From contig NZ_CP104311.1 in the NCBI RefSeq assembly GCF_036864975.1, positions 908,001-972,000 of the forward strand: 64,000 bases of DNA, read 5' to 3'. The notes below the pieces were generated by a model. It ran no database searches, was not told where the DNA came from, and saw only the letters and a program-made list of their open reading frames with translations. The translations under genes were made by a program, and so were the position numbers. The stretch comes from Methylococcus capsulatus (GTDB lineage: Bacteria > Pseudomonadota > Gammaproteobacteria > Methylococcales > Methylococcaceae). Shown here one piece after another: positions 2,361-20,266 of this stretch (positions are counted from its first letter, which is position 1; every line of letters starts with the position of its first letter).

Positions 2361-2464
2361 TCCCCCTCCTGCCGACTGGCTGTTCAAACATAGACAAGTT
2401 TGCCGTATGCTTGCCAAGATTACCATCATCACCGGCCGCTGTCCCGATACCGGGTGAGGAAGCG
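2361..2464. promoter_or_regulatory. Divergent promoter region between nurA-herA and the BREX operon
   Basis: This 104-bp gap separates two divergent operons and must hold both promoters. On the minus strand TTGGCA (2412-2417) is a fair -35, but no convincing -10 follows at 17 bases. On the plus strand no good consensus pair is visible. GGTGAGGAAG just before 2465 is the ribosome site of the first BREX-side gene. The helix-turn-helix protein encoded next is a natural candidate for binding here, but that is inference. Confidence 0.4.
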
Positions 2465-2692
2465 ATGAAAGACGACACTGGAGAGATATTCACGCTCGAC
2501 GAAGTAGCTGCCTACCTCAAGGTGGGCAAGCGCACGGTCTATCGCTTGGCGGCGGCTAAGAAGATCCCCGCATTCAAAGTTGGTGGCACTTGGCGATTCC
2601 GGCGCCAGGAAATCGACCAGTGGATCAAGAGGCAGACGGCGGAAGCCCAGAGCGATGATGGTCCTGGCGGACCTCATGGCAGGAATGGGTAA
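2465..2692 (+). CDS. Small excisionase/MerR-type helix-turn-helix protein heading the BREX operon
   Basis: 75 residues from the ATG at 2465, preceded by GAGGAAG; longer upstream readings cross the divergent promoter and are not credible. Residues 9-55 are a classic HTH_17/excisionase-like winged helix, with LDEVAAYLKVGKRTVYRLAA as the DNA-reading helices and an FKVGGTWRFRRQEIDQWI wing. Such proteins bind DNA as excision factors or small transcription regulators. Lying 11 bases before brxF and opposite nurA, it probably regulates one or both operons. The C-terminal tail is low-complexity Gly/Pro/Asp. Confidence 0.75.
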   Translation: MKDDTGEIFTLDEVAAYLKVGKRTVYRLAAAKKIPAFKVGGTWRFRRQEIDQWIKRQTAEAQSDDGPGGPHGRNG

Positions 2693-2703
2693 AGGGCCGC
2701 CCC

Positions 2704-3171
2704 ATGCTCACACGACTGGACCGTCTGGTAGACGAGATCGCGGCCCTGCACAGCAAGCTGATCCTGCTTGTTGGGCGCCCTGGATGCGGCAAGAGCGCGC
2801 TGCTGGCCGAGCTGGCCAATCAGCGCGGTATGAAGGTAATGAATGTCGGAGCGGTGTTGGGAAAGCGTCTCGCGGCGCTCGCCCAGCGGCAGCGAGCACT
2901 TCAGGCCAATGTCGCGATGCGGGAGCTGGCCGATGAGTACGCGAGTGGCGATCTGGTCCTGCTCGACAACATCGAGCTGCTGTTCGATCAGTCGCTCAAG
3001 CTCGATCCGTTGGATCTGCTCAAGCGCCACGCCCACGCTCGGCGTGTTGTAGCAGTGTGGCCAGGAGAGCTGCGCGACGGTCGGTTGAGCTATGCCGAGA
3101 TGGGGCATCCGGAATATCAGGACTACGGCCTGGAGGGCGTGGTTCCGTTCGAAATTGAATCGATTGGGTAA
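2704..3171 (+). CDS. brxF: BREX type 3 small P-loop ATPase BrxF
   Basis: 155 residues. Walker A GRPGCGKS lies at residues 24-31 and a Walker B strand LVLLDN at 84-89. Size, sequence style and position directly before a large BrxC-type ATPase match BrxF, the hallmark gene of type 3 BREX. BREX systems methylate host DNA and block replication of unmethylated phage DNA; the role of BrxF is unknown beyond ATP binding. The start has only a weak AAAGGG ribosome site, which suggests partial dependence on translation of the preceding gene. Eleven bases separate its stop from brxC. Confidence 0.8.
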   Translation: MLTRLDRLVDEIAALHSKLILLVGRPGCGKSALLAELANQRGMKVMNVGAVLGKRLAALAQRQRALQANVAMRELADEYASGDLVLLDNIELLFDQSLKLDPLDLLKRHAHARRVVAVWPGELRDGRLSYAEMGHPEYQDYGLEGVVPFEIESIG

Positions 3172-3182
3172 AGGGAAAACGC

Positions 3183-6100
3183 ATGCGCTACGGGGATCTC
3201 ATTCAGTTCGAGCCGATCGAGTCGGTCATTCAGCTGCTCGACGCCAATCGGCCCGATGAGGCAAAGAAGCTCGTCGCCACCTACGTCATCTCCGACGACA
3301 TGGCCGAGCGGATCACCAAGCAGATGATCCCGCAGCTCTCGTTCGACGAATCGGTCGACCACAAGGGTGTGCTCGTGGTCGGCAACTATGGCACCGGTAA
3401 GTCGCATTTGATGTCGGTGCTGTCGCTGATCGCCGAGGACGCCGCCTACGTCCCCATGATCCGCCACCCCAAGGTCGCCGAGGCTGCCGGTGCGATCGCC
3501 GGCAAGTTCAAGGTGCACCGGATCGAGATCTCCAGCCAGATGTCCCTGCGCGACATCATCACGCAGGAGCTCGAGATTTTCCTGGAGAACCAGGGTGTTA
3601 GCTATTCCTTCCCGCCGGCCGACAAGGTGGTCAACAACAAGGCCGCCTTCGAAGAGATGATGGCCGCGTTCGACGAGGTGCACCCCAACCACGGCGTCCT
3701 CCTCGTCGTTGATGAATTCCTTGAATACCTGCGCTCCCGCAAGGACCATGATCTGGTGCTGGATCTGTCCTTCCTGCGCGAGATCGGCGAGGTCACCAAG
3801 CACCTGCGCTTCCGCTTCGTGGCCGGCGTGCAGGAGGCCATCTTCGACAGCAGCCGCTTCCAGCACGTGGCCGACAGCCTGTATCGCGTGAGCGAGCGCT
3901 TCACCCAGGTGCTGCTTGCCCGCCATGACGTGAGCTTTGTGGTGGCCGAACGCCTGCTCAAGAAGTCGGCCGACCAGCAACACAAGATCCGCACCTATCT
4001 CACGCCCTTCGCCAAGTTCTACAGCAATATGAACGAGCGGATGGATGAGTATGTCCGCCTTTTCCCCGTTCACCCGGACTACATCGGCACCTTCGAGCGG
4101 CTGATCTTTACCGAAAAGCGTGGCGCGCTGGTCACCCTGCGCGACCAGATCCAGGCTCTCCTGGATGAGGAGGTGCCGACCGATCGCCCCGGCTTGATCG
4201 GCTACGACAAGTTCTGGGACACGGTCACCTCCAACTCGGTGCTGCGCTCAGACCCGAATATCGGCCCGGTGTTGAAGGTTGCGGAGGCGCTGGGCGAGCG
4301 CGTGCAAAAGGCCTTCACCCGTCCGCCCTACAAGGCGATGGCCATGCGGGTGATCAAGGGGCTGTCCGTACACCGCCTGACCACCGGCGGCGACATCTAC
4401 GTGCCGGTGGGCCCAACGGCCGAGGAACTGCGCGACACGCTTTGTCTGTACCAGCCCGGCATCGAGGACATGGGCGGCGAGCCTTCCGACGACCTGCTGA
4501 CCGCCGTGCAGACGACGCTGCGCGAGATCGTCAAGACGGTCAACGGCCAGTTCATCTCCAAAGCGCCAGATACCGAGCAGTACTACCTCGATCTCAAGAA
4601 GGACGTCGACTACGACGCCCAGATCGAAAAGCGCGCCGAAGCGCTGTCCGACGACGCCCTGGATCGTGCCTACTACAGCGCCATGATGCAGCTCATGGAA
4701 TGCACCGATGAGCATGCCTACGTTACCGGCTACAAGATATGGCAGCACCAGGTCGAGTGGCAGGACCGCCGCGTGGAGCGCAACGGCTACCTCTTCCTAG
4801 GGGCGCCCAACGATCGGCCGACCGCCCAGCCCGAGCGCGATTTCTACATCTACTTCATCCAGCCGTTCGAGCCGCCCCGTTTCCGCGACGACAACAAGAC
4901 GGACGAGGTGTTCTTCCGACTGAAGGGGCTGGACGACGCCATCAAGCGCCATCTGGCGTTCTACGCCGCTGCCCAGGAACTTGCTTCCACGGCCAGCTGC
5001 GCGGCAAAGGCCGTCTACCTGGACAAGGCCCGTCGCGCCTTAAGCGACATGAGCAAGTGGCTGCAGGACAAACAGATGACCGCCTTCGAGGTCACCTACC
5101 AGGGCAAGACCCGACGCCTTTCGGAATGGGCCAAGGGCGTGTCGATGCGCGACAAGCTCCGATTGGGCCCGGACGAGCGCGCCAACTTCCGCGACATCGT
5201 CAACGTCACCTCAGGTCTGGCTCTCGGCACCCATTTCGCGGATCTTGCGCCGGAATATCCGACCTTCTCTGTCCTGGTCACCGAATCCAACCGCAAGCAG
5301 CTCATCACCAACGCCCTGAAGGCGCTGGCGGGTGGAACGCGCACCAAGGACGCCATCGCCATCCTGGACGCGCTGGAGATGTTGGACGGCGACCGCATCG
5401 AGCCCACGCGATCCAAGTACGCCCAGGAAGTGCTCAACCGGCTCAAGGCCAAAGGCCACGGGCAGGTGCTCAACCGCAGCGAGCTGCTCGTTCCGGTTGC
5501 TGGAGACATCGAATATTTCTACCCAACCAAGTACAGACTGGAGCCAGACCTTCTGATCATCGTGCTGGGCGCGCTGGTCTACTCGGGCGACATCGTGCTG
5601 GCGATTACCGGCGACAAGATCGACGCCGGCAAGCTGTCGCTCCTGGCCGAACGACCCTTGGACGACCTGATCCAGTTCAAGCACATCGAACCGCCCAAGG
5701 AAATCAATGTCGCCGTCTTGCGCTCGCTGTTCGAGCTGCTGGGCCTGCCGTCCGGCCTTGCCCAGATGGCGACGCAAGGCAAGGAAGAACCGGTCAAGAA
5801 ACTGCTGGATGCCGTGGCCAAGCTGGTACAGCGTGTGCTCACGGTCGGCACCGACCTGCAGAACCGCCTCAGCTTCTGGGGCCAGTCCCTGCTGCGCGAA
5901 GAAGAGCTGCGCGATTGGCGCACACGGCTGGAAGCGCTCAAGGGCTTCCTGGAAGGACTGTCGCCCTACAACACCGTCGGCAAGCTGAAAAACCTGCGCA
6001 TCACCCAGGACGACATCGATACCCAAAAGAAGAACCTCGATGTGCTTGCCGCAGTGGAGAGACTGCGTGACCTGGTTGCCGAGCTGGGCAATGTTGCCGC

Positions 6101-6911
6101 CTACCTCTCCCAAGCCGAAATGGTGCTGCCCGGCGATCATCCCTGGGTGCAGCAGGCACAGGCTGCCCGCAAGGACATTCTCGACAAGCTCGCCGAGGAC
6201 CGCAGTGCGCAGCATGCCGCTGAATACCGCCAGCGCCTGGCCACGTTGAAGAAGGACTACATCACCGCCTACGTGGCGCAACACAGTAAGGCCCGGCTCG
6301 GCGTGGCGGAGGACAAGACCAAGTCCGCTCTGCGCAAGGATCTGCGCATGGTGACCCTGCGCGCCTTGGCTGGCATCTCCCTCATGCCCACCGGCCAGCT
6401 CACCACCTTCGAAGACAGACTGGACAAGCTCAAGAGCTGCGCATCCCTGGTGGAAAGGGAGCTGGAAACAAGCCCGGTATGCCCGCACTGCGGTTTTCGC
6501 CCTGCCAACGAGCAGGGCGATCTGCTGCCGGCCGCCAACGTGCTCAAGGCCCTGGACGACGAACTCGATCGTCTCCTGGAAGGGTGGCAGCGAACCCTAC
6601 TGGACAACCTGGACGACCCGATCATTCAAGCGAACTTCGAACTGCTTAGACCTAAGCAGCGTGACCTGATCAAGGGCTTCCTTGCGTCGAAAGCCTTGCC
6701 GGATCCGGTCACGCCCGAGTTCGTCGCAGCGGTTCAGGAAGCGCTGTCCGGCCTCGAAAAGATCGTGGTCACCGGCGACGACGTCAAGAGGGCGCTGCTC
6801 GCTGGTGGATCCCCCGCGACGCCCGAGGATCTGCGCAAGCGTTTCGAGTCGTTCCTGAGCGAGCGCTGCAAGGGCAAGGACGCGAGCAAGCTGCGGTTCG
6901 TGGTGGAGTAA
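3183..6911 (+). CDS. brxC: BREX type 3 large ATPase BrxC/PglY (DUF6079-like)
   Basis: 1242 residues. Walker A GNYGTGKS is at 67-74 and Walker B VLLVVDEF at 172-179, followed by a long helical body. A lone CPHCG knuckle occurs near residue 1100. The N-terminal pattern (a DLIQFEPIESVIQL helix, then an AAA domain) and the length fit the BrxC/PglY ATPases of BREX, which are thought to work on DNA together with PglZ and PglX. In type 3 loci brxC is normally followed directly by pglXI. Here an ATPase-DUF4276 cassette intervenes. No frameshift or truncation is seen. Confidence 0.85.
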   Translation: MRYGDLIQFEPIESVIQLLDANRPDEAKKLVATYVISDDMAERITKQMIPQLSFDESVDHKGVLVVGNYGTGKSHLMSVLSLIAEDAAYVPMIRHPKVAEAAGAIAGKFKVHRIEISSQMSLRDIITQELEIFLENQGVSYSFPPADKVVNNKAAFEEMMAAFDEVHPNHGVLLVVDEFLEYLRSRKDHDLVLDLSFLREIGEVTKHLRFRFVAGVQEAIFDSSRFQHVADSLYRVSERFTQVLLARHDVSFVVAERLLKKSADQQHKIRTYLTPFAKFYSNMNERMDEYVRLFPVHPDYIGTFERLIFTEKRGALVTLRDQIQALLDEEVPTDRPGLIGYDKFWDTVTSNSVLRSDPNIGPVLKVAEALGERVQKAFTRPPYKAMAMRVIKGLSVHRLTTGGDIYVPVGPTAEELRDTLCLYQPGIEDMGGEPSDDLLTAVQTTLREIVKTVNGQFISKAPDTEQYYLDLKKDVDYDAQIEKRAEALSDDALDRAYYSAMMQLMECTDEHAYVTGYKIWQHQVEWQDRRVERNGYLFLGAPNDRPTAQPERDFYIYFIQPFEPPRFRDDNKTDEVFFRLKGLDDAIKRHLAFYAAAQELASTASCAAKAVYLDKARRALSDMSKWLQDKQMTAFEVTYQGKTRRLSEWAKGVSMRDKLRLGPDERANFRDIVNVTSGLALGTHFADLAPEYPTFSVLVTESNRKQLITNALKALAGGTRTKDAIAILDALEMLDGDRIEPTRSKYAQEVLNRLKAKGHGQVLNRSELLVPVAGDIEYFYPTKYRLEPDLLIIVLGALVYSGDIVLAITGDKIDAGKLSLLAERPLDDLIQFKHIEPPKEINVAVLRSLFELLGLPSGLAQMATQGKEEPVKKLLDAVAKLVQRVLTVGTDLQNRLSFWGQSLLREEELRDWRTRLEALKGFLEGLSPYNTVGKLKNLRITQDDIDTQKKNLDVLAAVERLRDLVAELGNVAAYLSQAEMVLPGDHPWVQQAQAARKDILDKLAEDRSAQHAAEYRQRLATLKKDYITAYVAQHSKARLGVAEDKTKSALRKDLRMVTLRALAGISLMPTGQLTTFEDRLDKLKSCASLVERELETSPVCPHCGFRPANEQGDLLPAANVLKALDDELDRLLEGWQRTLLDNLDDPIIQANFELLRPKQRDLIKGFLASKALPDPVTPEFVAAVQEALSGLEKIVVTGDDVKRALLAGGSPATPEDLRKRFESFLSERCKGKDASKLRFVVE

Positions 6912-6922
6912 AGGAGCCCGAC

Positions 6923-8083
6923 ATGATCAAGACCATCACGCTCACCAATTTCCTGAGTTACGGACCCGCGCCCGAGCCGGTCGAGCTGCGCGCGCTCAAT
7001 GTGATCATCGGCCCGAACGGATCTGGAAAGTCCAACCTCATCGAGGCACTGGAGCTGCTGTGTGCAACTCCGAAAGACTTGCTGATCCCCATCCGCGACG
7101 GCGGCGGCGTCCGCGATTGGCTGTGGAAAGGCGCCACAAAGCCGCCCATCGCCATGATCGACGCGGTCATCGACAACCCCAAAGGCCCTGTGCCGCTGCG
7201 CTATGTGCTGAGTTTCACCGAGGTGGGCCAGCGCTTTGAGATCGTGGACGAAAGGGTGGAAAACGAAGTGCCCGATGTGGGACACGCCCAGCCCTACCTG
7301 TACTACAAGTTCGAGAGTGGGCATGGCGTGCTCAACGTCAAGGGCAAACAGCGTCGCTTGCAGCACGAAGACATCGACCCCACCGCATCGATCCTAGCCC
7401 AGCGCAAAGATCCCGACCAATACCCAGAGCTGACCTACCTGGGCAACGCTTTCTCGAAGATGCGTCTGTACCGGGAGTGGAGCTTCGGCCGTTACACCAT
7501 TCCTCGCCTTCCCCAGAAGGCCGACCTGCCCAACGAGCATCTGGAGCCCGACGCGAGCAACTTGGGCCTGGTGCTCAACCGTTTGCGTCGTGAGCCAACC
7601 GTCAAGAAGCGGCTGCTGGATGCCTTGAGGGCGCTCTACGATGGCATCGACGACTTCGATGTGCAGATTGAAGGCGGCACTGTGCAGGTGTTCTTCCACG
7701 AAGGGCGCTACACCGTGCCTGCCACCCGCTTTTCGGACGGCACGCTGCGTTATCTGTGCCTGCTCGCGATCCTTTGCCACCCCAACCCGGGGCCGCTCGT
7801 CGTCATCGAAGAGCCGGAGCTGGGCCTCCACCCGGATGTGCTGCCCACCCTGGCTGAGCTGCTCAAGGAAGCCTCCGCGCGCACGCAACTCGTCGTCACC
7901 ACCCATTCCGATATCCTGGTCGATGCGCTGACCGACCAGCCCGAAGCGGTACTGGTCGCCAGCAGGGATGAAGCGGGTACGCGCCTGGAACGACTGAGCG
8001 CCGAAAAGCTCAAGCCCTGGCTGGAGAAATATCGCTTGGGGCAGCTTTGGACCCGCGGCGAGATCGGAGGGACACGGTGGTGA
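6923..8083 (+). CDS. AAA/ABC-type ATPase (OLD/RecF-like), accessory cassette 1
   Basis: 386 residues. The N-terminal strand leads into Walker A GPNGSGKS (30-37). FSDGTLRYL is an ABC-type signature, PLVVIEEPE near residue 296 is Walker B, and TTHSD near 326 is the switch histidine. This is the RecF/OLD/AAA15-21 family of single-chain ABC ATPases that sense DNA or phage proteins in many defence systems. It starts 11 bases after brxC with an AAAGGAG site. Its stop overlaps the next start as GTGA, so it is coupled to the DUF4276 gene. The pair resembles the PARIS plan (AAA ATPase plus TOPRIM partner), but with DUF4276 in place of DUF4435. Confidence 0.8.
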   Translation: MIKTITLTNFLSYGPAPEPVELRALNVIIGPNGSGKSNLIEALELLCATPKDLLIPIRDGGGVRDWLWKGATKPPIAMIDAVIDNPKGPVPLRYVLSFTEVGQRFEIVDERVENEVPDVGHAQPYLYYKFESGHGVLNVKGKQRRLQHEDIDPTASILAQRKDPDQYPELTYLGNAFSKMRLYREWSFGRYTIPRLPQKADLPNEHLEPDASNLGLVLNRLRREPTVKKRLLDALRALYDGIDDFDVQIEGGTVQVFFHEGRYTVPATRFSDGTLRYLCLLAILCHPNPGPLVVIEEPELGLHPDVLPTLAELLKEASARTQLVVTTHSDILVDALTDQPEAVLVASRDEAGTRLERLSAEKLKPWLEKYRLGQLWTRGEIGGTRW

Positions 8084-8709
8084 AGCTCTACGTCGAGGGT
8101 GGCGGTGACGGCAAAGCCCTGCAGATCGAGTGTCGCCGCGGATTCCGGGAGTTTCTCGAGAAAGCCGGCTTGAAAGGCAAGATGCCCGCCATCGCCGCCT
8201 GTGGTGGCAGGCGCTTCGCCTATGAGGATTACTGCACGGCGATCGCCAACGGCGAAGCGGCGATGCTGCTGGTCGACAGCGAAGCGCCTATCGCGGCCGC
8301 ACACCAGAAGGGAAAGCCAGATGAGTGGCTGCCTTGGCAGCACCTGAAAGCCCGACAGGGTGATGGCTGGGACAGGCCCCAAGGCGCCCGTGAAGCCGAC
8401 TGCCACCTGATGGTGCAGTGCATGGAATCCTGGTTCCTAGCCGACCGAGAAAAGCTCAAGGACTTTTTCGGCCAGGGCTTTCGGGACAACGCCCTGCCAT
8501 CCGCCGCAAACCCGGTCGAAACGATCGCCAAAACGGCGGTGCTCGACAGCCTGAAGAATGCCACGCGTCACTGCCAGCTCAAAGGGCAGTACGGCAAAGG
8601 CGATCACTCCTTCAAATTGCTGGCGCAACTCGACCCTGCCAAGGTCGTCGCCGCCTCGCCCTGGGCGAAGCGCTTTGTCGACACCCTCAAACAGAAGATG
8701 GGCGCATGA
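8080..8709 (+). CDS. DUF4276 protein, TOPRIM-like partner of the cassette 1 ATPase
   Basis: 209 residues from the GTG at 8080. That start gives a four-base GTGA overlap with the ATPase gene and sits nine bases after GGAGG at 8066-8070; an in-frame GTG at 8077 is the alternative. The N-terminal strand KLYVEGGGD supplies a TOPRIM-style Glu and AAMLLVDSEAP supplies a D-x-E acidic pair, consistent with a metal-binding nuclease or nucleotidyl-transfer fold. A central CMESWFLAD block and a C-terminal SPWAKRFVDTL are typical of DUF4276. The reading is a predicted effector nuclease controlled by the ATPase. The catalytic role is inference from motif layout. Confidence 0.75.
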   Translation: MKLYVEGGGDGKALQIECRRGFREFLEKAGLKGKMPAIAACGGRRFAYEDYCTAIANGEAAMLLVDSEAPIAAAHQKGKPDEWLPWQHLKARQGDGWDRPQGAREADCHLMVQCMESWFLADREKLKDFFGQGFRDNALPSAANPVETIAKTAVLDSLKNATRHCQLKGQYGKGDHSFKLLAQLDPAKVVAASPWAKRFVDTLKQKMGA

Positions 8710-11486: not shown

Positions 11487-12517
11487 GCAAGCTCAGCCAC
11501 ATCAAGCTGGAGAATTTCACCGCCTTTGCCAGCCTGGACCAGGCGTTCTCCCCAGGCGTCAACGTGATCATCGGCGCCAACGGCACGGGTAAGACCCACC
11601 TGCTCAAGGTGCTCTATGCCGCCGCGGCGATCACCTTGGGCGAAGACCGGGAAAGAGGCTTTGCCCGCAAGCTGCTCGGCGTCTTCAATCCCTACCAGGC
11701 GCGCATGACACGTCTGATACGACGACAGCAGGGCTTGCCCGCTGCCGAGATCAGCATCGCGCGAGAGGATGGCGCCAAGCTCAAGACGGTCATCGACAAC
11801 CGGAAGGCGGACGTCAACGATGTGCGCGTCTCTGGGGAAACCAAGTGGCTGAGCATCAGCATGGAGTCCGCGTACATTCCGGTCAAGGAAATGCTGGCCC
11901 ACGCACCCGGTTTTCTGGCGACGGCATCGAAGCGGGAGATCGCCTTCGAGGATGTCTATGTCGACATCATCAAGAAGTCCTTTCTGCCAAAACTCAGAGG
12001 CCAACCCCATGATAACCGTAAACGGCTTTTGAATGCTTTGCAAAAAGCGATCGAAGGAAAGGTAATTGCCAAGGGCGAACATTTCTTTCTTAAGAATAGC
12101 CAGGGTGAATTGGAGTTCACTTTGCTGGCCGAGGGCATGCGCAAGCTTGCGCTGATCTGGTTGCTAATCCAGAACGGCACGCTCTTGTCCGGCTCGCTGC
12201 TCTTCTGGGACGAACCCGAGGCCAACCTGAACCCCTCTCTCATGGGCGAGGTCGTCGAAATCATTCTGGAACTGCATCGGCTTGGGGTTCAGGTCTTCCT
12301 GACCACCCACAACTATGTTCTGCTCAAGGAGTTCGACCTGCGGCAGAAAAAGGGTGATGCCATCCGCTATATCTCGCTGTATCGCGATGAGCAGAAGGCG
12401 GTCGTGGCCAACGCCAGCGACAGCTACACGGGCATCGACCCCAATGCCATCACCGGAACCTTCAGCGACCTATACGACCGCGAGCTGAAGCGCAGCCTGG
12501 GAGGGTTGGTCGAATGA
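11483..12517 (+). CDS. AAA/ABC-type ATPase, accessory cassette 2
   Basis: 344 residues. Walker A GANGTGKT is at 31-38, LLFWDEPEANLNP near residue 242 is Walker B with the D-loop Asn, and LTTHNYVLLKEF near 273 is the switch region. It belongs to the RecF/SMC-like AAA_15/21 ATPases. Both ends overlap their neighbours by four bases (ATGA at 11483 and at 12514), so it is read as part of the BREX polycistron. It is not a close copy of the cassette 1 ATPase. It probably licenses the nuclease encoded next. Confidence 0.8.
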   Translation: MSKLSHIKLENFTAFASLDQAFSPGVNVIIGANGTGKTHLLKVLYAAAAITLGEDRERGFARKLLGVFNPYQARMTRLIRRQQGLPAAEISIAREDGAKLKTVIDNRKADVNDVRVSGETKWLSISMESAYIPVKEMLAHAPGFLATASKREIAFEDVYVDIIKKSFLPKLRGQPHDNRKRLLNALQKAIEGKVIAKGEHFFLKNSQGELEFTLLAEGMRKLALIWLLIQNGTLLSGSLLFWDEPEANLNPSLMGEVVEIILELHRLGVQVFLTTHNYVLLKEFDLRQKKGDAIRYISLYRDEQKAVVANASDSYTGIDPNAITGTFSDLYDRELKRSLGGLVE

Positions 12518-13023
12518 CGTCTTTGGCCGAGGGGGACTTGCAGATCGCCTTGCCGGCCGGGGCCGCTGGGCGAAAGTTCGATGATGGGGCGACTCACGGG
12601 CTTTCCCACTGCATGAAGGCCGTGGATTTCATCGTGGAGCTGGATGAGAGGATTCTTTTCATCGAGTTCAAGGACCCGGATCACCCGGCCGCGCAACCCA
12701 AAGATCGGAACACGTTTCTGACAAAGATTCTGAGTGGCGGCTTGGATTCAGACCTGAAGACGAAATATCGGGACTCCTTCCTCTACGAATGGGGAGCCGG
12801 CCGAGTGACCAAGCCGATCTACTACCTCGTGTTGATTGGCGCGAGCAGCTTGTCCGAGGCGGAATTGCTAGCCAGAACAGATGCCCTGCGGCGGCAGCTC
12901 CCCGCCCATGGACCTGGTGACAGACCCTGGAAGAAGCCATTTGTCGCCGGTTGTGGCGTCATGAATATTGAGACGTGGAACAAGGCCTTGCCACAGTTTC
13001 CCGTCAACAGACTCAGCGCATGA
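12514..13023 (+). CDS. Small PD-(D/E)XK-like nuclease, accessory cassette 2
   Basis: 169 residues, overlapping the ATPase by ATGA and brxHII by four bases. I do not recognise a named family. The segment VDFIVELDERILFIEFKD (Asp38, Glu51, Lys53) is a textbook D-x(n)-E-x-K active site on two adjacent strands, and a later strand PIYYLVLIGASSL fits the fold. Paired with an ABC-type ATPase this looks like a defence effector module. Catalysis is inferred from the motif alone; it could also be an inactive DNA-binding relative. Confidence 0.6.
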   Translation: MTSLAEGDLQIALPAGAAGRKFDDGATHGLSHCMKAVDFIVELDERILFIEFKDPDHPAAQPKDRNTFLTKILSGGLDSDLKTKYRDSFLYEWGAGRVTKPIYYLVLIGASSLSEAELLARTDALRRQLPAHGPGDRPWKKPFVAGCGVMNIETWNKALPQFPVNRLSA

Positions 13024-15845
13024 CTGCTTGGAACGTCGGCGACTGGTGCTGGCATGCCCGGCAGGCGTCCCCCTGCCGGGTGATCGACCGCCAGGACGTG
13101 TGGGGCGAGGTCGCCTACCGCGTCTGGCTGCCGGCCAAGGATGCCGTGGTGCGCGCCCGCGCCCAGGATCTGGGCGAACTGACCAACGTGCGTCCGACGG
13201 TGGAGCAGATCCTGCACACGGTGGCCGCGGCCAAGCTGCTCGACGCGCTGGAAGACAACCTGCTGCTGGCGCCGATCCAGTCCAGCGTGGTGCCGCTGCC
13301 GCACCAGCTCTACGCGCTGAATCGGGCCATGAGCCGAGATCGCATCCGCTACTTGCTGGCGGACGAGGTGGGGCTGGGCAAGACCATCGAAGCGGGGCTG
13401 ATCCTGCGCGAGTTGAAGCTGCGCGGCATGGTGCGGCGGGTGCTGGTGGTGGCGCCGAAAAGCCTGGTGCGCCAGTGGCAGGCCGAAATGCGGCTGCACT
13501 TCGGCGAGCACTTCCGCTTCGTTGAGCCATCTGAACTCGCGGCCTTCCGTCAATGGCGCGACAACGGCACCCAGAACGACGAGAACCTCTGGCGCATGCA
13601 TGACCAGGTGATCGTCTCGCTCGACTCGGTCAAACCCATCGAAGGCCGCCGTGGTTGGAGCTTGGAGCAACTCGCCACCTACAACCGCGAGCGCTTCGAG
13701 GATCTGATCTCGGCAGGCTGGGATTTGGTGATCATCGACGAGGCACACCGCCTCGGCGGCAGTACTGAGCAGGTTGCCCGCTACAAGCTCGGTGCCGCTT
13801 TGGCCGAGGCCGCTCCCTACTTGCTGTTGCTATCCGCGACGCCGCATCAGGGCAAGACCGACCAGTTCATGCGGTTGATGCAGTTGTTGGACCGTGAGGC
13901 CTTTCCGGACGAAGGCAGCATCGACCGCGATCGGGTGCGCCCGTTCGTGATCCGCACCGAGAAGCGGGCCGCCATCGACGCGGAAGGCCAACCGCTATTC
14001 AAGCCCCGGTCCACACGACTTCACCCGGTAGCTTGGCAAGAGCGGCATGCCGCTCAGCGAAGGCTCTATGAGGCCGTGACGGACTACGTCCGGCACGGGT
14101 ACAACCAGGCGATGGCTGCCAAACAGCGGCACATCAGCTTCCTGATGATCCTGATGCAGCGGCTGGTGACGTCCAGTACGGCCGCCATCCGCGCCACCCT
14201 GGAGAAGCGCCAGGCCGTGCTGGAGGCGCCTCAGGCGCAGGCGAGCCTGTTCGAGGCAGTTGCCCCGGATGAGTGGGCAGAGCTCGACGGCCAGTCCCAG
14301 CTCGACATTGCCGTGCAGGCCAGCGGCTGGGAGCGGGAGAAGTCGGAGGTCGAGATGCTGCTGGATCTCGCCCGCGAAACCGAGCGACAGGGGACGGATG
14401 CCAAGGCAGAAGCGCTGTTGGAATTGATCTACAAGCTCCAGCAGGAGGAGAACGACCCGCAGCTCAAGGTGCTGGTCTTCACCGAGTTCGTTCCCACCCA
14501 GGCCATGCTGGCGGAGTTCCTGGAGAGCCGGGGCTTTTCGGTGGCGTTGCTCAACGGCGGGATGGACCTGGACGCGAGAACCCGCGCCCAGCAGGCCTTC
14601 TCACGAGATGTCCGGATACTGATCTCCACCGATGCCGGCGGCGAGGGCCTGAACCTCCAGTTCTGCCATGTCATCGTCAACTTCGACATGCCATGGAACC
14701 CGATGCGGCTGGAGCAGCGCATCGGCCGGGTGGACCGTATCGGCCAGCCCCATGTGGTGCGGGCCATCAACTTCGTGCTGGAAGACACGGTGGAGCACCG
14801 GGTGCGCGAGGTGCTTGAGGAGAAGCTTGCCGTCATCGCCCAAGAGTTCGGTGTCGACAAGGCAGCCGACGTGATGGATTCGGTGGAGGTGGAGCCGCTG
14901 TTCGACGAGCTGTTCGTGCATGGACTGCAAAACCCAGCATCGATCGACAAGGAATGTGATGCGCTCATCAGCCAGGTGCGCGACAAGGTCGCCGCCAGTC
15001 GCAAAGACACCGATCTGTTGACGGAAGACCACACGCTGGAAGCAGACGATGCCCGCAAGTGGCGGGATCATCCAGCGCAGTATTGGTTGGAGCGTGCGAT
15101 CACCGCCGGGTTGCCTGCGCGAGGTGGAGCGGCTGAGAAGGCAGGCGACGCTTGGCGCGTGAGGTGGGCGGACGGGAGCGAGTCACCCCGTGTCTGCTTC
15201 GACGCGCGCACCGCCGAACAGAACCCTGAGATGGAGTGGATCACGCTGGAAGATCCACGCGCCCGTGCAGTCATCAGCGAACTGCCGCGCTGCGTGGCGG
15301 GCCAGCCCCTGCCGATTGCGGCAGTCAGCGGCTTGCCCGATACGGTGCACGGCGTGTGGTCGCTGTGGGAGATCAGCATTAGCGCGTCCAATCTCTCTGA
15401 GAACTTCAACCGGCGGCGATTCTTGCCCGTGTTTGTTACCGACGATGGCCGCACCTTCGTGCCGACCGCCAAGCGGATCTGGGATTTGCTGCTGACCGAG
15501 AACGTGACGCTCGCCCCGAAGGTCGAGGTAGAGCATGCCTTGGCCTGCTTCGAAACGTCGCTGGCTGCGGCCAAGGCACAGGGGGAGCGGCTTTTTACCG
15601 AGCTGCTGGAGGAGCACCGTGCCTGGCTCGCCGAGGAGCGTGAACGGGCGCGCTACGCCTTTGAAGCGCGCTACCAGGCGATAGGCCGCATAGGCCTTCC
15701 CGCGGTCAGGGAGCACCGGCGCAAACGGCTCGAAGCCGAGCACGAGACGCGTCTGGCAGCGCTGGCGGATGCGGAAGCCTGCACGCCGGATCTCAACGCC
15801 GTGCTGATGTTGAGAGTCGGCCAATCGGGAGGTGCACAGGCATGA
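13020..15845 (+). CDS. brxHII: BREX type 3 SNF2-like helicase BrxHII
   Basis: 941 residues from the ATG at 13020, overlapping the nuclease stop; an upstream ATG at 12975 would give 956 residues but lies deep in the previous gene. Superfamily 2 motifs are clear: ADEVGLGKTIEAG near residue 115 (motif I), IIDEAHR near 239 (II), LLLSATPHQGK (III), and the C-terminal TDAGGEGLNLQ with EQRIGRVDRIGQ (V and VI). The C-terminal part is a Glu/Arg/Ala-rich helical region. This class of SNF2 helicase lies between pglXI and pglZ in type 3 BREX. It probably translocates on duplex DNA. Confidence 0.85.
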   Translation: MTAWNVGDWCWHARQASPCRVIDRQDVWGEVAYRVWLPAKDAVVRARAQDLGELTNVRPTVEQILHTVAAAKLLDALEDNLLLAPIQSSVVPLPHQLYALNRAMSRDRIRYLLADEVGLGKTIEAGLILRELKLRGMVRRVLVVAPKSLVRQWQAEMRLHFGEHFRFVEPSELAAFRQWRDNGTQNDENLWRMHDQVIVSLDSVKPIEGRRGWSLEQLATYNRERFEDLISAGWDLVIIDEAHRLGGSTEQVARYKLGAALAEAAPYLLLLSATPHQGKTDQFMRLMQLLDREAFPDEGSIDRDRVRPFVIRTEKRAAIDAEGQPLFKPRSTRLHPVAWQERHAAQRRLYEAVTDYVRHGYNQAMAAKQRHISFLMILMQRLVTSSTAAIRATLEKRQAVLEAPQAQASLFEAVAPDEWAELDGQSQLDIAVQASGWEREKSEVEMLLDLARETERQGTDAKAEALLELIYKLQQEENDPQLKVLVFTEFVPTQAMLAEFLESRGFSVALLNGGMDLDARTRAQQAFSRDVRILISTDAGGEGLNLQFCHVIVNFDMPWNPMRLEQRIGRVDRIGQPHVVRAINFVLEDTVEHRVREVLEEKLAVIAQEFGVDKAADVMDSVEVEPLFDELFVHGLQNPASIDKECDALISQVRDKVAASRKDTDLLTEDHTLEADDARKWRDHPAQYWLERAITAGLPARGGAAEKAGDAWRVRWADGSESPRVCFDARTAEQNPEMEWITLEDPRARAVISELPRCVAGQPLPIAAVSGLPDTVHGVWSLWEISISASNLSENFNRRRFLPVFVTDDGRTFVPTAKRIWDLLLTENVTLAPKVEVEHALACFETSLAAAKAQGERLFTELLEEHRAWLAEERERARYAFEARYQAIGRIGLPAVREHRRKRLEAEHETRLAALADAEACTPDLNAVLMLRVGQSGGAQA

Positions 15846-17836
15846 CCGCATGGGCTGATCGCATCCTGAAGGAGTTCCCCTCCGATCTCGCCCGGCTGTG
15901 GATTGTCACCGACCCGGACGACGTGTTACTGGATGAGCAGGTGTTGTCTGGCCTGCGCGAGCGCGGTTTCGACGTATTGCCTTTCGAGGACAGCATCGCC
16001 TTCCGGGCAGAGTACGAGGAGCGCTATCGGGCGGCGTGGGAACGCGGGGAGCCTGGCCCGTCCCGCGCCTTGGTCCTCCAGTTGCGTGGCACGGCCCTGG
16101 GCGAACTGCCTTGGGACTACTTGCGCCAGGCGCGCAAGGTCAGTCTGGGGCTTGTAGAGCTGTTTCCGAAACTGAGCTATGCGGTGGTCAGGCAGCTGGG
16201 CAGCGAGATGCTACCCGCGCTGTTCGAGGCGCAGGCGCGGCACGTTCATCAGTCGCTGGGTGAGGCGGCGACGAAGGAGTTTGTGCTGACGCACATCTTC
16301 CGGATCAGCCCGCATCTGATCACCCGGCCAGAGGACCTTTGGCGTGAGCTGCTCCGTCTGCACTACCGCGAGGCACTGCTGCCGCCCGTGTTGGCGGAGC
16401 ACGTGGAGCATGTGCTCGGTGAGCGAACGATCTTCACGGGCATTCCTGTCGCCGATCTGTTTTCGCAGAAGAGCTTCGCGCTGCGCGTGGTGCAGGACGC
16501 TTGGTATCGCTATCTGACCAAGCTGGGGCTCACCGGAACGCGAACGGGGGAGCCGGAGCCGCCGGACTATGTGCCCAAGCTCGACATCCCGTTCGATCAC
16601 CACGATGTCCGTGTGATTGTCGATTCGATGTTTCTGGACGGCACGCTACACCCGCTGGCGATCCAGGGTGTGCCGGTCAACCTGCCGGAATGGGCGAAAG
16701 CGGGTGTTGTGCAGGATCCGTTGTCGATGCGGAATCTGGTGCTTGAGGGCATCAAGAACCTCGAGGATGAGATCCCGACCTCTGCTTCTCCCTACCGCGA
16801 CTGGACCCATTTCTCGCGTCGGATCGGCGAGGTGATCTCGCGTTTCCACGGTCTGGACGCGGCCCGGGCAGAAAGCCTGAAGGACGAAATGCGGGGCTTG
16901 GTGAGCGATGCAGACAGCCGGCTGCAAGAGTGGGTTGAAACGCACTACGCCGATTTGCCGTCCCTGCCAGCGGCCAAGGCGCCTGTCATGGTCCATCACG
17001 TGCCGCGATACCTTGCGATGCGCCGAGCGCGTGGCGAGGAGAAGATCGCGCTCGTGGTCTTTGACGGGCTGGCGGTAGATCAGTGGACCCAGATTCGCGA
17101 GTGCATCGTTCATCGAGCGCCGCGACTGATGTTCGACGAGAACGCTTGTTTTGCGTGGCTGCCAACCCTGACGTCGGTTTCCAGGCAGGCGCTGTTCTCC
17201 GGCCTGCGCCCACGCGAGTTCGCCGACAGCATCGAGACCACCTCGAAAGAGCCCCAGCACTGGACGCGGTTCTGGCAAGACCACGGACTTCGCGCCAATG
17301 AGGTCTTGTACCGCAAATCGCTCAAGCGCATGGATGACCTTCCTGAGCTGGAATCTCTGCTCTCGAGCCCATCCGTGAAGATTGCAGGTCTGGTCGTGGA
17401 TACGGTCGACGAGATCATCCACGGCGCCGTGCTCGGCAAGCGCGGCGTTGCAACCCAGATTGGAAATTGGTGCGAATCGGGCTTTGTGGATCGCCTGTTT
17501 GCGATGCTGCTGGAGAACGGATTCCACGTCTACCTGACCGCTGATCACGGCAATGCCGAAGCGGTAGGGATTGGCCGTCCGAACCAGGGTGTCGCCTCGG
17601 AACTGCGCGGAGAGCGTGTCCGGACGTATCGCAGTGGGACTTTGGTTGCGGAGACAGCAGCGGCAAATCCGGACACCTTCCGTCTTGATGTCGCTGGACT
17701 TCCGGCGAACTTCATGCCGCTATTTGCAGGAGGGCGTGGGGCATTCGTGCCGAAGGGTGACCAGGTCGTGGTCCACGGTGGCATGTCCCTGGAAGAACTG
17801 ATCGTGCCCTTCGTGAGAGTGAGTTACGTAAATTGA
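15842..17836 (+). CDS. pglZ: BREX type 3 phosphatase-domain protein PglZ
   Basis: 664 residues, ATGA overlap with brxHII. The second half is an alkaline-phosphatase superfamily core: ALVVFDGLAVDQW near residue 404 gives the first metal-binding Asp, TLTSVSRQALFSGLRP near 440 holds the Thr/Ser nucleophile region, and LTADHGNAEAVG near 565 gives the second metal site. The N-terminal 250 residues match the variable PglZ arm. PglZ is the defining BREX gene. Its last codons overlap the next gene by TTGA. Confidence 0.88.
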   Translation: MTAWADRILKEFPSDLARLWIVTDPDDVLLDEQVLSGLRERGFDVLPFEDSIAFRAEYEERYRAAWERGEPGPSRALVLQLRGTALGELPWDYLRQARKVSLGLVELFPKLSYAVVRQLGSEMLPALFEAQARHVHQSLGEAATKEFVLTHIFRISPHLITRPEDLWRELLRLHYREALLPPVLAEHVEHVLGERTIFTGIPVADLFSQKSFALRVVQDAWYRYLTKLGLTGTRTGEPEPPDYVPKLDIPFDHHDVRVIVDSMFLDGTLHPLAIQGVPVNLPEWAKAGVVQDPLSMRNLVLEGIKNLEDEIPTSASPYRDWTHFSRRIGEVISRFHGLDAARAESLKDEMRGLVSDADSRLQEWVETHYADLPSLPAAKAPVMVHHVPRYLAMRRARGEEKIALVVFDGLAVDQWTQIRECIVHRAPRLMFDENACFAWLPTLTSVSRQALFSGLRPREFADSIETTSKEPQHWTRFWQDHGLRANEVLYRKSLKRMDDLPELESLLSSPSVKIAGLVVDTVDEIIHGAVLGKRGVATQIGNWCESGFVDRLFAMLLENGFHVYLTADHGNAEAVGIGRPNQGVASELRGERVRTYRSGTLVAETAAANPDTFRLDVAGLPANFMPLFAGGRGAFVPKGDQVVVHGGMSLEELIVPFVRVSYVN

Positions 17837-18564
17837 ATCGAATGAAGTCATCAGCACCGCAAATTGGCTTCGACCGCTTCATACCGCTGGAGTGGGCGGC
17901 GGCTGCGCTGCGGGTGCGTGCTGATCTGGGGACGCTCGATGATCTGAATGCCCTGTTGGACGCAGCCGAACTGGGTGTGGCAGCACGAAAGAAGACACGG
18001 ACTGTACTGAATCGTTTGTGGCTTGAGCCACGCCCCGAACTCGCCGACTTCGCCGAGCGTGCCGTCGCGATCTTCAAGGCCGACCCGAGCGTCCCTATCG
18101 CCGCCCTGACCTGGGGCATGGCCATTGCCACCTATCCGTTCTTCGGCAAGGTGGCGGAGCTGGTGGGGCGCCTCTCGGCGTTGCAAGGTGACTGTGCTTC
18201 GGCGGAAGTCCATCGCCGAATGAGCGAAACCTATGGCGAACGCGAAGGCACGTACCGGATGACCAACATGGTGCTGCAGTCGCAGGCGAGCTGGGGCGCA
18301 ATCGAGCGCATCGAGAAAGGCAAGCGCCTCGTGCGCATGAAGCCGATCGTGGTCAGCAACGAACAGGCTGTGGCCTGGCTTGTCGAGGCGGCGCTGCGTT
18401 ACTTCGGCAAAGCCGTATCGGTTCCGACGCTGTCGTCCTTGGCGGTGCTTTATCCATTCGTGCTGGATCAGCCGCTGGGCTACCTTGCATCAAAGAGCCC
18501 GAACCTGGAAGTGAGGTCGGAGGGAGCCGGAATCCAGTTCGTGTGCCTGCATCCCGCACGGTGA
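17833..18564 (+). CDS. brxA: BrxA-like (DUF1819-like) BREX protein
   Basis: 243 residues from the TTG at 17833, which gives a TTGA overlap with pglZ; the in-frame ATG at 17842 is equally possible. The layout resembles BrxA/DUF1819: a helix-rich N-terminus, a KKTRTVLNRLW segment, a WGMAIATYPFFGKVAELVGRL helix and a C-terminal winged-helix-like block with YRMTNMVLQSQASWG. BrxA is a DNA-binding protein of BREX and is last in the usual type 3 order, as here. I could not confirm the family by alignment, so the symbol is tentative. Confidence 0.55.
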   Translation: MNRMKSSAPQIGFDRFIPLEWAAAALRVRADLGTLDDLNALLDAAELGVAARKKTRTVLNRLWLEPRPELADFAERAVAIFKADPSVPIAALTWGMAIATYPFFGKVAELVGRLSALQGDCASAEVHRRMSETYGEREGTYRMTNMVLQSQASWGAIERIEKGKRLVRMKPIVVSNEQAVAWLVEAALRYFGKAVSVPTLSSLAVLYPFVLDQPLGYLASKSPNLEVRSEGAGIQFVCLHPAR

Positions 18565-18573
18565 CGATCGTTC

Positions 18574-20224
18574 ATGCCCTTGCTAAATGCCATAGAGTCC
18601 ACCGTCGCACGCACGAGGAAGACGATTCGGCGACGAATCGCGGCATCGTGGCAGTACGGGTATAGAGCCAAATACCGGCTTGCACAATGGGGGCTTCGAT
18701 ATGGCAGCATTGTACTTGCTGCGGTTCTACTCCTTCTCGTATCCGCCAGCGCTTATCTGTCGCCGGCTCTCCAAACTGTGCTTGGGGAGCACTACGCGAC
18801 AGAACAGGCGATCGAGGGGCTGCGCGGCCTGATTCTAAACACGGGAACCGCGCTGATAGGTGCGGCCGCCATTGTGACATCGCTCGTACTGTTCGCCATG
18901 CAGGTAAACATCGAGCGCATGCCTCACGGGTTATTTCGCCGCCTGAGTGCAGATCCGAAGCTGCTCGGCGCGTTTGCGTTGGCATTCCTCCTGGCAATCG
19001 GCGTCGCATCGCTCTCCACGTTCGTGGATCAGACCCGGCTGGCGTACGTCGTGCTCGCGGCCTCATGGGCGATCGTATTCATACTGATCTCGTTCATGTA
19101 CGCCTATCGGCGCGCCTTGGTCCTCATCAATCCCTTGCAGCAACTCGGCATACTCATTCAAGACACCCGGAAGGAATTGCGGACCTGGGCTCGGCGGGCT
19201 CAGCGGGCAATGCCACTCCTTGAGCGCGAAGAACCTGCAAGTGCCACGTCGTCACCCACGGACTCCACGCATGACTTGGCCCGTAGGGTCTTCTTCCAGA
19301 TCAACAATCGATGGACCGATGGCGCGAAACGAGCGATCCGACATGCAATGTCGTTTGCTCGGCGCTATGCAGAGCAAGGGGATTATGAAGTTTCCGGCGC
19401 GGCGCTGAACGCTGTCGTCGGCATCAATGCTGCATACATCGAGTCCAAGGGGAAAACTTTCTACGCCAATAACCCATTTGTCGACAACCCTCTTTCTAGC
19501 GACAGCTTCTTCAACGACACACTGGAGCACCTGCGGCAAAACGCCCAGAGTGGGATTACGCGCCGGGATGAGCAGCAAATCGAACAGACATTGCAAGCTA
19601 TGGCTGCGCTTGTTCAGGTGTATCTGGGCATCGATTACTCGAGCCCATATGCTGCAAAAAGCCACGCACAACTCGCCGCAGGATACCTTGCGAGCGCGGT
19701 ACAGACCGTGGTTCCTCACGATATGGCCGATGTTCTGCTGGAGGGACAACGGCTGATGGGGCAGTCTGCGCGATATATCCTCGCCCATGGAGATCCTAAC
19801 GACATAGCGGTACTCAGCGAAAAGATTGCTTTGGTCGCGTGCACTGGCTGCGCGAAAGAGGATTACCGCCCAGTTACGATGGAAGGCATGACGCAGCTTG
19901 CGAATCTGACTTTCGACCTCCTTCGATCCAGGAACCACGACATCCATTTCGCGGTTGGAGAAATCCGCCGAGACGTGGCCTTGGTTGCGAAGTTGTTTCT
20001 TAAGGTGCCAGATGCACCTCTATCGAGCAGCCATAGCACATTCCTGGGGCCGTACTACTCGTCGACGAGCATGCAGAGCTTGAGGGCGCGGCTTACGGCC
20101 TTGGCAAACGCGATCTCTGAAGCGCAACCGGACAATGCGGACGTCCAATCGATCATACGGAACATTGAGCGTTGGGCTGACGGCCTCTACCAAACGGAGA
20201 AGGAGTTACTTCTCGCAGCCGTAC
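18574..20224 (+). pseudogene. DUF2254-like four-helix membrane protein, 5' part, split by the prophage
   Basis: About 550 host-encoded residues remain. Four hydrophobic segments occur near residues 43-62, 84-108, 128-150 and 154-177, including ALIGAAAIVTSLVLFAMQ. A long soluble helical C-terminal domain follows, as in DUF2254 membrane proteins. It begins nine bases after the brxA-like stop with no clear ribosome site, so it looks like the last gene of the BREX operon. The prophage enters at 20225. The present open frame runs 41 bases into phage DNA and stops at 20263-20265, giving a foreign tail of about 13 residues. The gene resumes in frame at 63604. Confidence 0.8.
20219..20224. repeat. 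Left target-site duplication CCGTAC
   Basis: CCGTAC immediately precedes the TGAAG end of the prophage and recurs at 63604-63609 immediately after the CTTCA end. Joining the host sequence through one copy restores an open frame (...LLAAVQEKSHF...). Confidence 0.92.
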
Positions 20225-20235
20225 TGAAGGGGAGT

Positions 20236-20266
20236 GAGATAAATGAACGGGAATGTGTGAGATAAA
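20236..20266 (+). promoter_or_regulatory. Left-end transposase binding sites (two tandem copies)
   Basis: GAGATAAA occurs at 20236-20243 and 20259-20266, 23 bp apart, the first 11 bp from the element end. The right end holds the mirror arrangement. Identical distances at both ends argue that these are recognition sites for the MuA-type transposase, by analogy with Mu end sites. Confidence 0.75.

Follow-up and report, generated by a model that had tools for sequence, protein, structure and literature searches.

This study revealed that a type 3 bacteriophage exclusion (BREX) operon of Methylococcus capsulatus carries two embedded two-gene cassettes, HEC-01 and HEC-02, placed on either side of pglXI, the methyltransferase gene, and that within such operons inserts flank the methyltransferase on both sides and occur almost nowhere else. 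The complete operon occupies positions 2465-18564 on the + strand of the 64,000-nucleotide stretch analysed here (assembly GCF_036864975.1, contig NZ_CP104311.1, positions 908,001 to 972,000), referred to as the window. A preliminary description of this DNA had noticed both ATPase-nuclease-like pairs and had taken their overlapping start and stop codons as a sign that they are parts of the BREX system. Gene order and family matches confirm that the two pairs are real and lie inside the operon, at two of its junctions. We nevertheless consider it likely that HEC-01 and HEC-02 are autonomous backup cassettes, carried as cargo in two slots flanking pglXI, within an exchange zone centred on the methyltransferase. 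The features of the operon are as follows.

2465..2692, + strand: small helix-turn-helix (HTH) protein, MAD1-like with an excisionase-type HTH, first gene of the operon (NF047737, 88.1 bits, cut-off 80; TIGR01764)
2704..3171, + strand: brxF (NF033453 BREX_3_BrxF, 190.6 bits, cut-off 50; PADLOC BrxF)
3183..6911, + strand: brxC, type 3, DUF6079 (PF19557, 1911 bits)
6912..8705, + strand: cargo slot 1, the brxC/pglXI junction, occupied by HEC-01
6923..8083, + strand: HEC-01A, OLD-type ABC ATPase (PADLOC HEC-01A PDLC04177, 623.9 bits; AAA_21, 135.7 bits)
8080..8709, + strand: HEC-01B, DUF4276, predicted TOPRIM-type nuclease of the OLD kind (PF14103, 95.5 bits; PDLC04201, 278.4 bits)
8706..11486, + strand: pglXI, adenine methyltransferase, presumed specificity gene (PADLOC PglXI, 1365.7 bits)
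11483..13023, + strand: cargo slot 2, the pglXI/brxHII junction, occupied by HEC-02
11483..12517, + strand: HEC-02A, OLD-type ABC ATPase (PADLOC HEC-02A PDLC04213, 422 bits; AAA_21, 91.3 bits)
12514..13023, + strand: HEC-02B, 169 amino acids, predicted PD-(D/E)XK-like nuclease (PADLOC HEC-02B PDLC04229, 211 bits)
13020..15845, + strand: brxHII, Snf2-type helicase (best PADLOC model, labelled BrxHI|BrxHII, 1437.9 bits)
15842..17836, + strand: pglZ (PF08665, 77 bits; PADLOC PglZ, 800 bits)
17833..18564, + strand: brxA, TTG start (PADLOC BrxA, 224.8 bits)

The gene content, with brxF, a DUF6079 brxC, pglXI, brxHII, pglZ and brxA in this order, places the operon in type 3 BREX, and its predicted function is the methylation of specific adenine sites together with the exclusion of phages. 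The core order given in the preliminary description therefore stands, except that the operon begins at 2465 with the HTH gene and brxF itself starts at 2704; the full order is HTH, brxF, brxC, HEC-01A, HEC-01B, pglXI, HEC-02A, HEC-02B, brxHII, pglZ and brxA. Overlaps of 4 bp are present at all seven boundaries from HEC-01A to brxA, five of them ATGA (HEC-01B/pglXI at 8706, pglXI/HEC-02A at 11483, HEC-02A/HEC-02B at 12514, HEC-02B/brxHII at 13020 and brxHII/pglZ at 15842), one GTGA (HEC-01A/HEC-01B at 8080) and one TTGA (pglZ/brxA at 17833). The ATGA and GTGA overlaps described for the cassette junctions were thus recovered, whereas brxC and HEC-01A do not overlap and are separated by a gap of 11 bp (6912-6922). 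Judging from this layout, the pairs are probably co-transcribed and translationally coupled.

The location of inserts was surveyed in 87 type 3 loci, found with brxC as the only query. These comprise the window, the other copy present in its genome, five divergent loci, and the best 80 of 331 relatives from 84,980 species genomes, with brxC 71-96% identical. The divergent loci came from a scan of 397 genomes of the phylum in which 25 genomes gave a match; the organism's own genome and the five with full-length brxC were used, and a truncated one (G129) was dropped. A junction inside the operon was scored as filled when at least 300 bp separated the neighbouring core genes, and was counted only where both flanking genes were near-complete, so that denominators differ; the outer flanks lie outside this survey. 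One locus (L067) was left out at pglXI/brxHII owing to a misplaced helicase match, and slot 2 is undercounted in some loci because long slot-1 inserts put brxHII beyond the 10-kb flank.

Inserts were found at brxC/pglXI in 53/83 loci and at pglXI/brxHII in 23/66, against 1/86 at brxF/brxC, 1/52 at brxHII/pglZ and 1/38 at pglZ/brxA. With the five divergent loci and both copies from this genome set aside, the counts are 46/76 and 18/60 beside pglXI, and 0/79, 1/49 and 0/35 at the other three junctions. A pooled Fisher test of the pglXI-side against the other junctions gives p = 4e-28, a value that is descriptive only because the loci share ancestry and are not independent. The three filled junctions away from pglXI hold a GmrSD_N protein (L070), a gap in the sister copy that is partly filled by an extended pglZ reading frame, and, in the divergent locus L037, a second pglXI-like methyltransferase between brxF and brxC (1395-4274 of the reverse complement).

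The 76 filled slots are occupied by 150 open reading frames (ORFs) in 60 clusters, each named from one scanned representative. The preliminary description had proposed a survey for co-occurrence of the pairs with these junctions; HEC-01 was found in slot 1 in only 6/83 loci and HEC-02 in slot 2 in only 4/66, far from the presence in most loci of the type that an integral BREX component would show. In their distribution, the pairs are the rare, strain-specific inserts which that description had named as speaking against its own interpretation. Elsewhere the slots stand empty or contain different cargo. Slot 1 contains Schlafen-AlbA/HATPase proteins (14), PD-T7-3-like proteins (11), SIR2 with HerA (7, and one of another kind), a Phd_YefM + PIN pair (2) and PDC-M07 (2), among others, and slot 2 contains Schlafen-AlbA/HATPase proteins (8) and another HEC-01 kind (5). 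Cargo can also be stacked, as in L115, where slot 2 holds HEC-02 together with the other HEC-01 kind, or in L108, with several genes in slot 1. The operon strand carries 140 of the 150 ORFs, and the remaining 10, which stem from a mechanical longest-ORF choice, may be spurious. A PADLOC-named family is present in 36/76 filled slots, a figure that rises to 58/76 when Schlafen-like and toxin-antitoxin genes are counted, which leaves 18/76 with none of these. Four recurrent slot-1 clusters, F8 (L058:13736-15079), F14 (L061:13731-15650), F6 (L077:13739-14404) and F22 (L072:6744-7166), are candidates for undescribed defence genes; their scanned representatives matched neither PADLOC at 1e-4 nor Pfam.

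Overlap with the core genes is not peculiar to HEC-01 and HEC-02. Under a generous rule, which preferred an in-frame start giving an overlap, a 4-bp overlap from the core gene into the first cargo gene is possible in 10/52 cases for slot 1 and 6/22 for slot 2, and from the last cargo gene into the following core gene in 11/52 (3 of them HEC-01) and 17/22 (3 of them HEC-02). Sorted by kind, the following core gene can be overlapped by HEC-01 in 3/4 cases, by HEC-02 in 3/3, by Schlafen-like proteins in 4/12 (slot 1) and 8/8 (slot 2), by PD-T7-3-like proteins in 1/11, by the toxin-antitoxin pair in 1/2, and by others; as regards the overlap of brxC into slot-1 cargo, PD-T7-3-like proteins lead with 7/10. 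Since other kinds of cargo overlap too, the view of the preliminary description that co-translation points to BREX parts finds no support; it speaks for a good fit into the operon, not for membership in BREX.

Both pairs also occur away from type 3 BREX. HEC-02A-like genes (E <= 1e-30) are present in 31/398 genomes of the phylum and HEC-01A-like genes (E <= 1e-80) in 24/398, the organism's own genome included in each case. Contexts were read for 20 of 36 HEC-02 matches and 15 of 23 HEC-01 matches outside that genome, some on contigs shorter than 5 kb, by searching for two sets of core genes, the type 3 set of the window and one of type 1, not for other defence operons. Four of the HEC-02 contexts are type 1 BREX loci, each with the pair beside pglX, in one the pair lies about 6 kb from a BrxHII-like helicase (30% identity), and 15/20 gave no BREX core match in this search; one HEC-01 context abuts the end of a type 3 brxC, and 14/15 gave no such match. 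HEC-01A had no match in plasmids and phages at the limits used, and HEC-02A was found in 5 plasmid records, the surroundings of which were examined in three. These include a Methylomonas plasmid whose type 1 BREX has pglX flanked by HEC-02 on the brxC side and by a PDDEXK gene on the pglZ side, and a Paracoccus plasmid where HEC-02 stands without BREX core genes in the stretch examined.

A similar arrangement was seen in type 1 BREX. Among 17 type 1 loci chosen regardless of cargo, the brxC/pglX junction was filled in 4/17 and pglX/pglZ in 5/17, and brxA/brxB (0/15), brxB/brxC (0/17) and pglZ/brxL (0/17) were always empty. Pooled, this gives 9/34 for the junctions flanking pglX against 0/49 for the others, in a small sample partly picked by eye: it comprises 7 of 9 scanned genomes (G279 and G124, with a two-piece pglX, were left out) and 10 plasmid records out of 253, chosen by eye so that different genera were represented. 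The three type 1 loci found via HEC-02 (L171, L156 and L160) were excluded from the count. As further observations on type 1 pglX, the gene is interrupted by an insertion sequence (IS) element in L212, and its two pieces lie about 3 kb apart at G279:C1:3094555-3101209 and G124:C95:7959-14932.

The interchange of cargo is apparent within the organism itself. The genome contains a second type 3 BREX at about 1144-1160 kb, with the same HEC-02 in slot 2 (its proteins 87% and 79% identical to those of the window) and a Phd_YefM + PIN toxin-antitoxin pair in place of HEC-01 in slot 1. Its pglXI is split by a frameshift (L003 and L004 joined, about 20119-20125), which is why this copy may be without an intact methyltransferase and why pglXI was left out of the comparison of synonymous divergence between the copies. 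This divergence is 0.10 for brxC and 0.44-1.21 for brxF, HEC-02, brxHII, pglZ and brxA, and a tract of 2,460 bp starting just before brxC (window 3176-5635, about 1144.95-1147.4 kb in the second copy) is identical. Barring assembly error, this looks like a recent exchange within brxC that resembles gene conversion. In the genus, type 3 brxC is present in 4/6 genomes. M. capsulatus Texas (G451, locus L041) has both slots empty (about 50 and 10 bp), and its island is 92% identical to the window upstream and 88% downstream outside the slots and pglXI, with pglXI at 81%. Both slots are likewise empty in one congener (G453), and another (G432) holds relatives of the Phd_YefM + PIN pair together with HEC-02.

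The history of pglXI differs from that of its neighbours. Tree distances over 36 loci correlate at 0.64 between brxC and brxHII and at 0.83 between brxC and pglZ, as opposed to 0.12 between brxC and pglXI and -0.05 between brxHII and pglXI; in 50 loci selected without the pglZ requirement, the values are 0.70 for brxC-brxHII, 0.12 for brxC-pglXI and 0.06 for pglXI-brxHII. Change at fourfold sites was greater in pglXI than in both brxC and brxHII in 195/198 pairs of close loci, which are not independent of one another, and more than 1.5-fold greater in 114. Compared with the Tepidiphilus/Tepidimonas loci (L077 and L088), the window shows a synonymous divergence of about 0.30 in brxC, 0.17-0.19 in brxHII and 0.76-0.82 in pglXI. 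Conservation along pglXI is lowest at about residues 300-550 of the window protein. Phase variation of pglXI was considered and rejected, as breaks were seen in only 3/71 copies (brxHII 2/54, pglZ 1/41, brxC 0/87); no homopolymer of at least 7 was found in pglXI of the window or the sister copy. The idea that pglXI and cargo usually move as a single block was not supported either, since cargo is distributed almost at random on all three trees examined. The methyltransferase and the cargo appear to turn over separately, because cargo follows the pglXI tree no better than those of its neighbours.

With regard to the proteins themselves, both pairs agree with their PADLOC definitions, an ATPase gene followed by a DUF4276-type gene for HEC-01 and by a HEC-02B-type gene for HEC-02, with near full-length model matches. 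The nuclease-like character attributed to the pairs in the preliminary description is in keeping with structural models and conserved motifs. Sequence matches of HEC-01A in the PDB include SMC proteins, an OLD nuclease and AriA. The structure model of HEC-01B, built on six sequences, has a predicted local distance difference test (pLDDT) score of 84.5, and in a second look with VIA-align, on which this fold assignment rests, it matched the C-terminal, TOPRIM region of OLD with Z 9.5 over 169 residues (root-mean-square deviation, rmsd, 3.9) and GajA with Z 7.0, the top 12 rows all being OLD or GajA/Gabija. Foldseek alone gave no match at E <= 0.001 for the model of HEC-01B or of HEC-02B, and a PDB sequence search with HEC-01B gave nothing at E 0.1. 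The motifs E6-G-G and D66-S-E68 are conserved, with E6 and D66/E68 present in 18/18 sequences, and these residues could form the catalytic set. Because the model matches the OLD C-terminal region and carries conserved acidic residues, HEC-01 looks like an OLD nuclease divided over two genes.

For HEC-02B, no Pfam match was found, and the single PDB sequence match (E 0.46) was taken as chance. Its relatives share a D38...E51-x-K53 motif (D38 in 19/19, E51 in 19/19 and K53 in 18/19). A low-confidence model (pLDDT 63.4) has the restriction endonuclease EcoO109I as its best match (Z 6.9, 123 residues, rmsd 3.9), followed, with some unrelated rows between and Z <= 6.9, by other restriction and repair nucleases, which we take to be PD-(D/E)XK enzymes. 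The motif and the weak fold matches, with no family match beside them, are suggestive of a PD-(D/E)XK nuclease.

These observations can be combined into a tentative mechanism. HEC-01 and HEC-02 would be self-contained anti-phage cassettes, lodged as cargo in one slot on each side of pglXI and expressed along with BREX through operon read-through and overlapping start and stop codons, without being components of the BREX machine. In each, the OLD-type ABC ATPase may sense a phage event and release the nuclease, predicted to be of the TOPRIM type in HEC-01 and of the PD-(D/E)XK type in HEC-02. A second layer of defence, as the preliminary description had suggested, is a reasonable function for the pairs and agrees with published views of embedded effectors (PMC12839542). 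While brxC, brxHII and pglZ largely share one history, pglXI and the cargo would be replaced. Homologous recombination with its anchors in the conserved genes on either side would account for this most simply, and we infer it to be the simplest route for cargo exchange as well.

Several observations weigh against this account. Both BREX operons of this genome have retained HEC-02, as has a congener (G432), and its overlaps with adjoining genes are more regular (4/4 and 3/3) than those of most cargo. In type 3 loci cargo keeps its slot, slot 1 for HEC-01 (6/6 cases), slot 2 for HEC-02 (4/4) and also for the other HEC-01 kind (5/5), and the Schlafen-like family falls into slot-specific groups, with identities of 60% and 79% within them and 48% between them. 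A fitted role could equally explain this slot fidelity and the regular overlaps of HEC-02. When only the conserved columns of pglXI are used, its correlation increases to 0.37 with brxC, 0.17 with brxHII and 0.39 with pglZ, which means that part of the incongruence comes from its variable region. In the Tepidiphilus/Tepidimonas comparison, pglZ is as diverged as pglXI (0.77-0.94), so exchange is not confined to the zone. Finally, the number of cargo changes is 26, 27 and 26 on the pglXI, brxC and brxHII trees, respectively, with shuffle means of 28.4-28.5.

Three other explanations were weighed. That HEC-01 and HEC-02 are parts of this BREX, forming its own abortive layer through protein contacts or BREX signals, is suggested by their position inside the operon, by the 4-bp overlaps at seven boundaries, by the constancy of their slots in type 3 loci and by the presence of HEC-02 in both copies of the genome, and some embedded modules have been proposed to be semi-autonomous, requiring BREX input (PMC12839542). 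We nevertheless regard it as unlikely, given that the pairs are rare and in close relatives are absent or replaced by unrelated cargo, that both are found without BREX core genes and that other cargo shares the overlaps. Moreover, PARIS embedded in a Salmonella BREX is dispensable for it: deletion of ariA/ariB caused no loss of BREX defence, single deletions raised it tenfold and methylation stayed near wild type without PARIS (PMC11341690). The proposal that cargo placed beside the methyltransferase guards that gene or its product, firing upon a phage inhibitor such as Ocr or upon loss or conversion of the locus, seems to us the least probable of the three. It would accord with the flanking of the methyltransferase in both BREX types, with the toxin-antitoxin genes among the cargo and with the likeness of OLD/TOPRIM pairs to PARIS, which responds to Ocr (PMC12839542), but a published assay found the PARIS of the Salmonella BREX to be unresponsive to Ocr (PMC11341690), and both pairs occur without a BREX core neighbour.

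A further explanation concerns tolerance instead of exchange: the junctions of pglXI might be filled simply because inserts there spare a needed stoichiometry, the other core genes being tightly coupled. This is possible, and we give it some weight, as empty brxHII/pglZ and pglZ/brxA junctions overlap in 26/52 and 26/38 loci, whereas empty junctions of pglXI leave gaps (mostly some 34-76 bp at brxC/pglXI and 11 or 23 bp at pglXI/brxHII, measured from one aligned gene end to the next, counting the stop codon). Nevertheless, it leaves the separate history of pglXI itself unexplained, and brxF/brxC, with a spacing of mostly 12-38 bp, is no tighter than pglXI/brxHII, yet is filled in only 1/86 loci.

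The HEC families were reportedly named by Payne et al. 2024, HEC being said to stand for Hma-embedded candidates. The pairs of the window are the same two-gene systems as HEC-01 and HEC-02 of PADLOC and are likewise embedded in a host defence operon, but here the host is a type 3 BREX instead of Hma (a host indicated by the name and by PMC12988326), and both are present at once, one in each slot. Antiviral activity has been demonstrated for several HEC systems (PMC12988326). OLD-ABC ATPases with TOPRIM, PD-(D/E)XK, HNH or PIN partners have been described inside BREX loci and proposed as backup effectors (Rakesh and Krishnan 2026, PMC12839542). The two cassettes share with these an ABC ATPase and a TOPRIM or PD-(D/E)XK nuclease within BREX, whereas the slot junctions, the comparison of junctions and the replacement of pglXI between conserved flanks were not found in the excerpts consulted of that paper. 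Embedded BREX effectors as a kind are therefore already published; what is new is the slot map together with the exchange zone.

Two further sources are presumably Went et al. 2024 (PMC11341690) and Picton et al. 2021 (PMC8565348). BrxU and PARIS resemble the cassettes as defence genes embedded in BREX, but these cases concern type 1 BREX and other cargo. In the pEFER BREX, brxU lies between brxC and pglX (PMC8565348), and BrxU acts independently of its BREX (PMC12707154). The Salmonella study surveyed the interval from pglX to pglZ and counted genes there in some 7,000 out of roughly 9,000 genomes (PMC11341690). HEC-01 shares with PARIS (AriA and AriB) the two-gene layout of ABC ATPase and TOPRIM nuclease, but HEC-01B is a DUF4276 protein without an AriB match, all 11 PADLOC families matching it at E 0.01 being HEC-01B models; moreover, PARIS is known by its trigger and tRNA target, and HEC-01 here from its genes. 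In OLD, ATPase and nuclease form one polypeptide. HEC-01 divides them over two genes, and GajA is a single polypeptide (PMC12839542). The literature search returned no paper on DUF4276, alone or with BREX, and no statement that type 3 BREX follows a two-slot rule or that pglXI is exchanged while its conserved neighbours stay, although these may be in print, since figures and supplements lay outside the search.

Some neighbouring features deserve mention. The HTH gene at the head of the operon (2465-2692) scores above the cut-off of the NCBIfam model for MAD1, a protein of the MADS defence system, and a relative of it lies directly upstream of brxF in 14/84 loci. Directly after brxA, a 563-residue ORF (18574-20265) gave no Pfam, PADLOC, NCBIfam, PHROG or phage-record match; M. 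capsulatus Texas (L041) has a 93% identical counterpart at the same position, and more than 2 kb after brxA was available in only 2 loci. A Mu-like prophage, from about 20344 to at least 57180, adjoins the BREX island and includes Phage_Mu_F, tail completion, terminase, portal, transposase, DUF3164 and head protease genes and a 2207-residue tape measure.

The wider proposal, on which we are evenly divided, is that of an exchange zone in which the specificity gene and one slot on each side would be replaced separately, through homologous recombination in the neighbouring core genes, in type 3 and type 1 alike. BREX would then serve as a platform on which specificity and backup weapons can be renewed while the engine is left alone. 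As a caution, overlapping genes in a defence operon need not be parts of one machine. If the proposal is true, new defence systems could be found by reading two fixed BREX junctions, where 18/76 filled slots carry no PADLOC-named family and no Schlafen-like or toxin-antitoxin gene, and there would be a simple account of how BREX changes its specificity and backup weapons while the engine stays.

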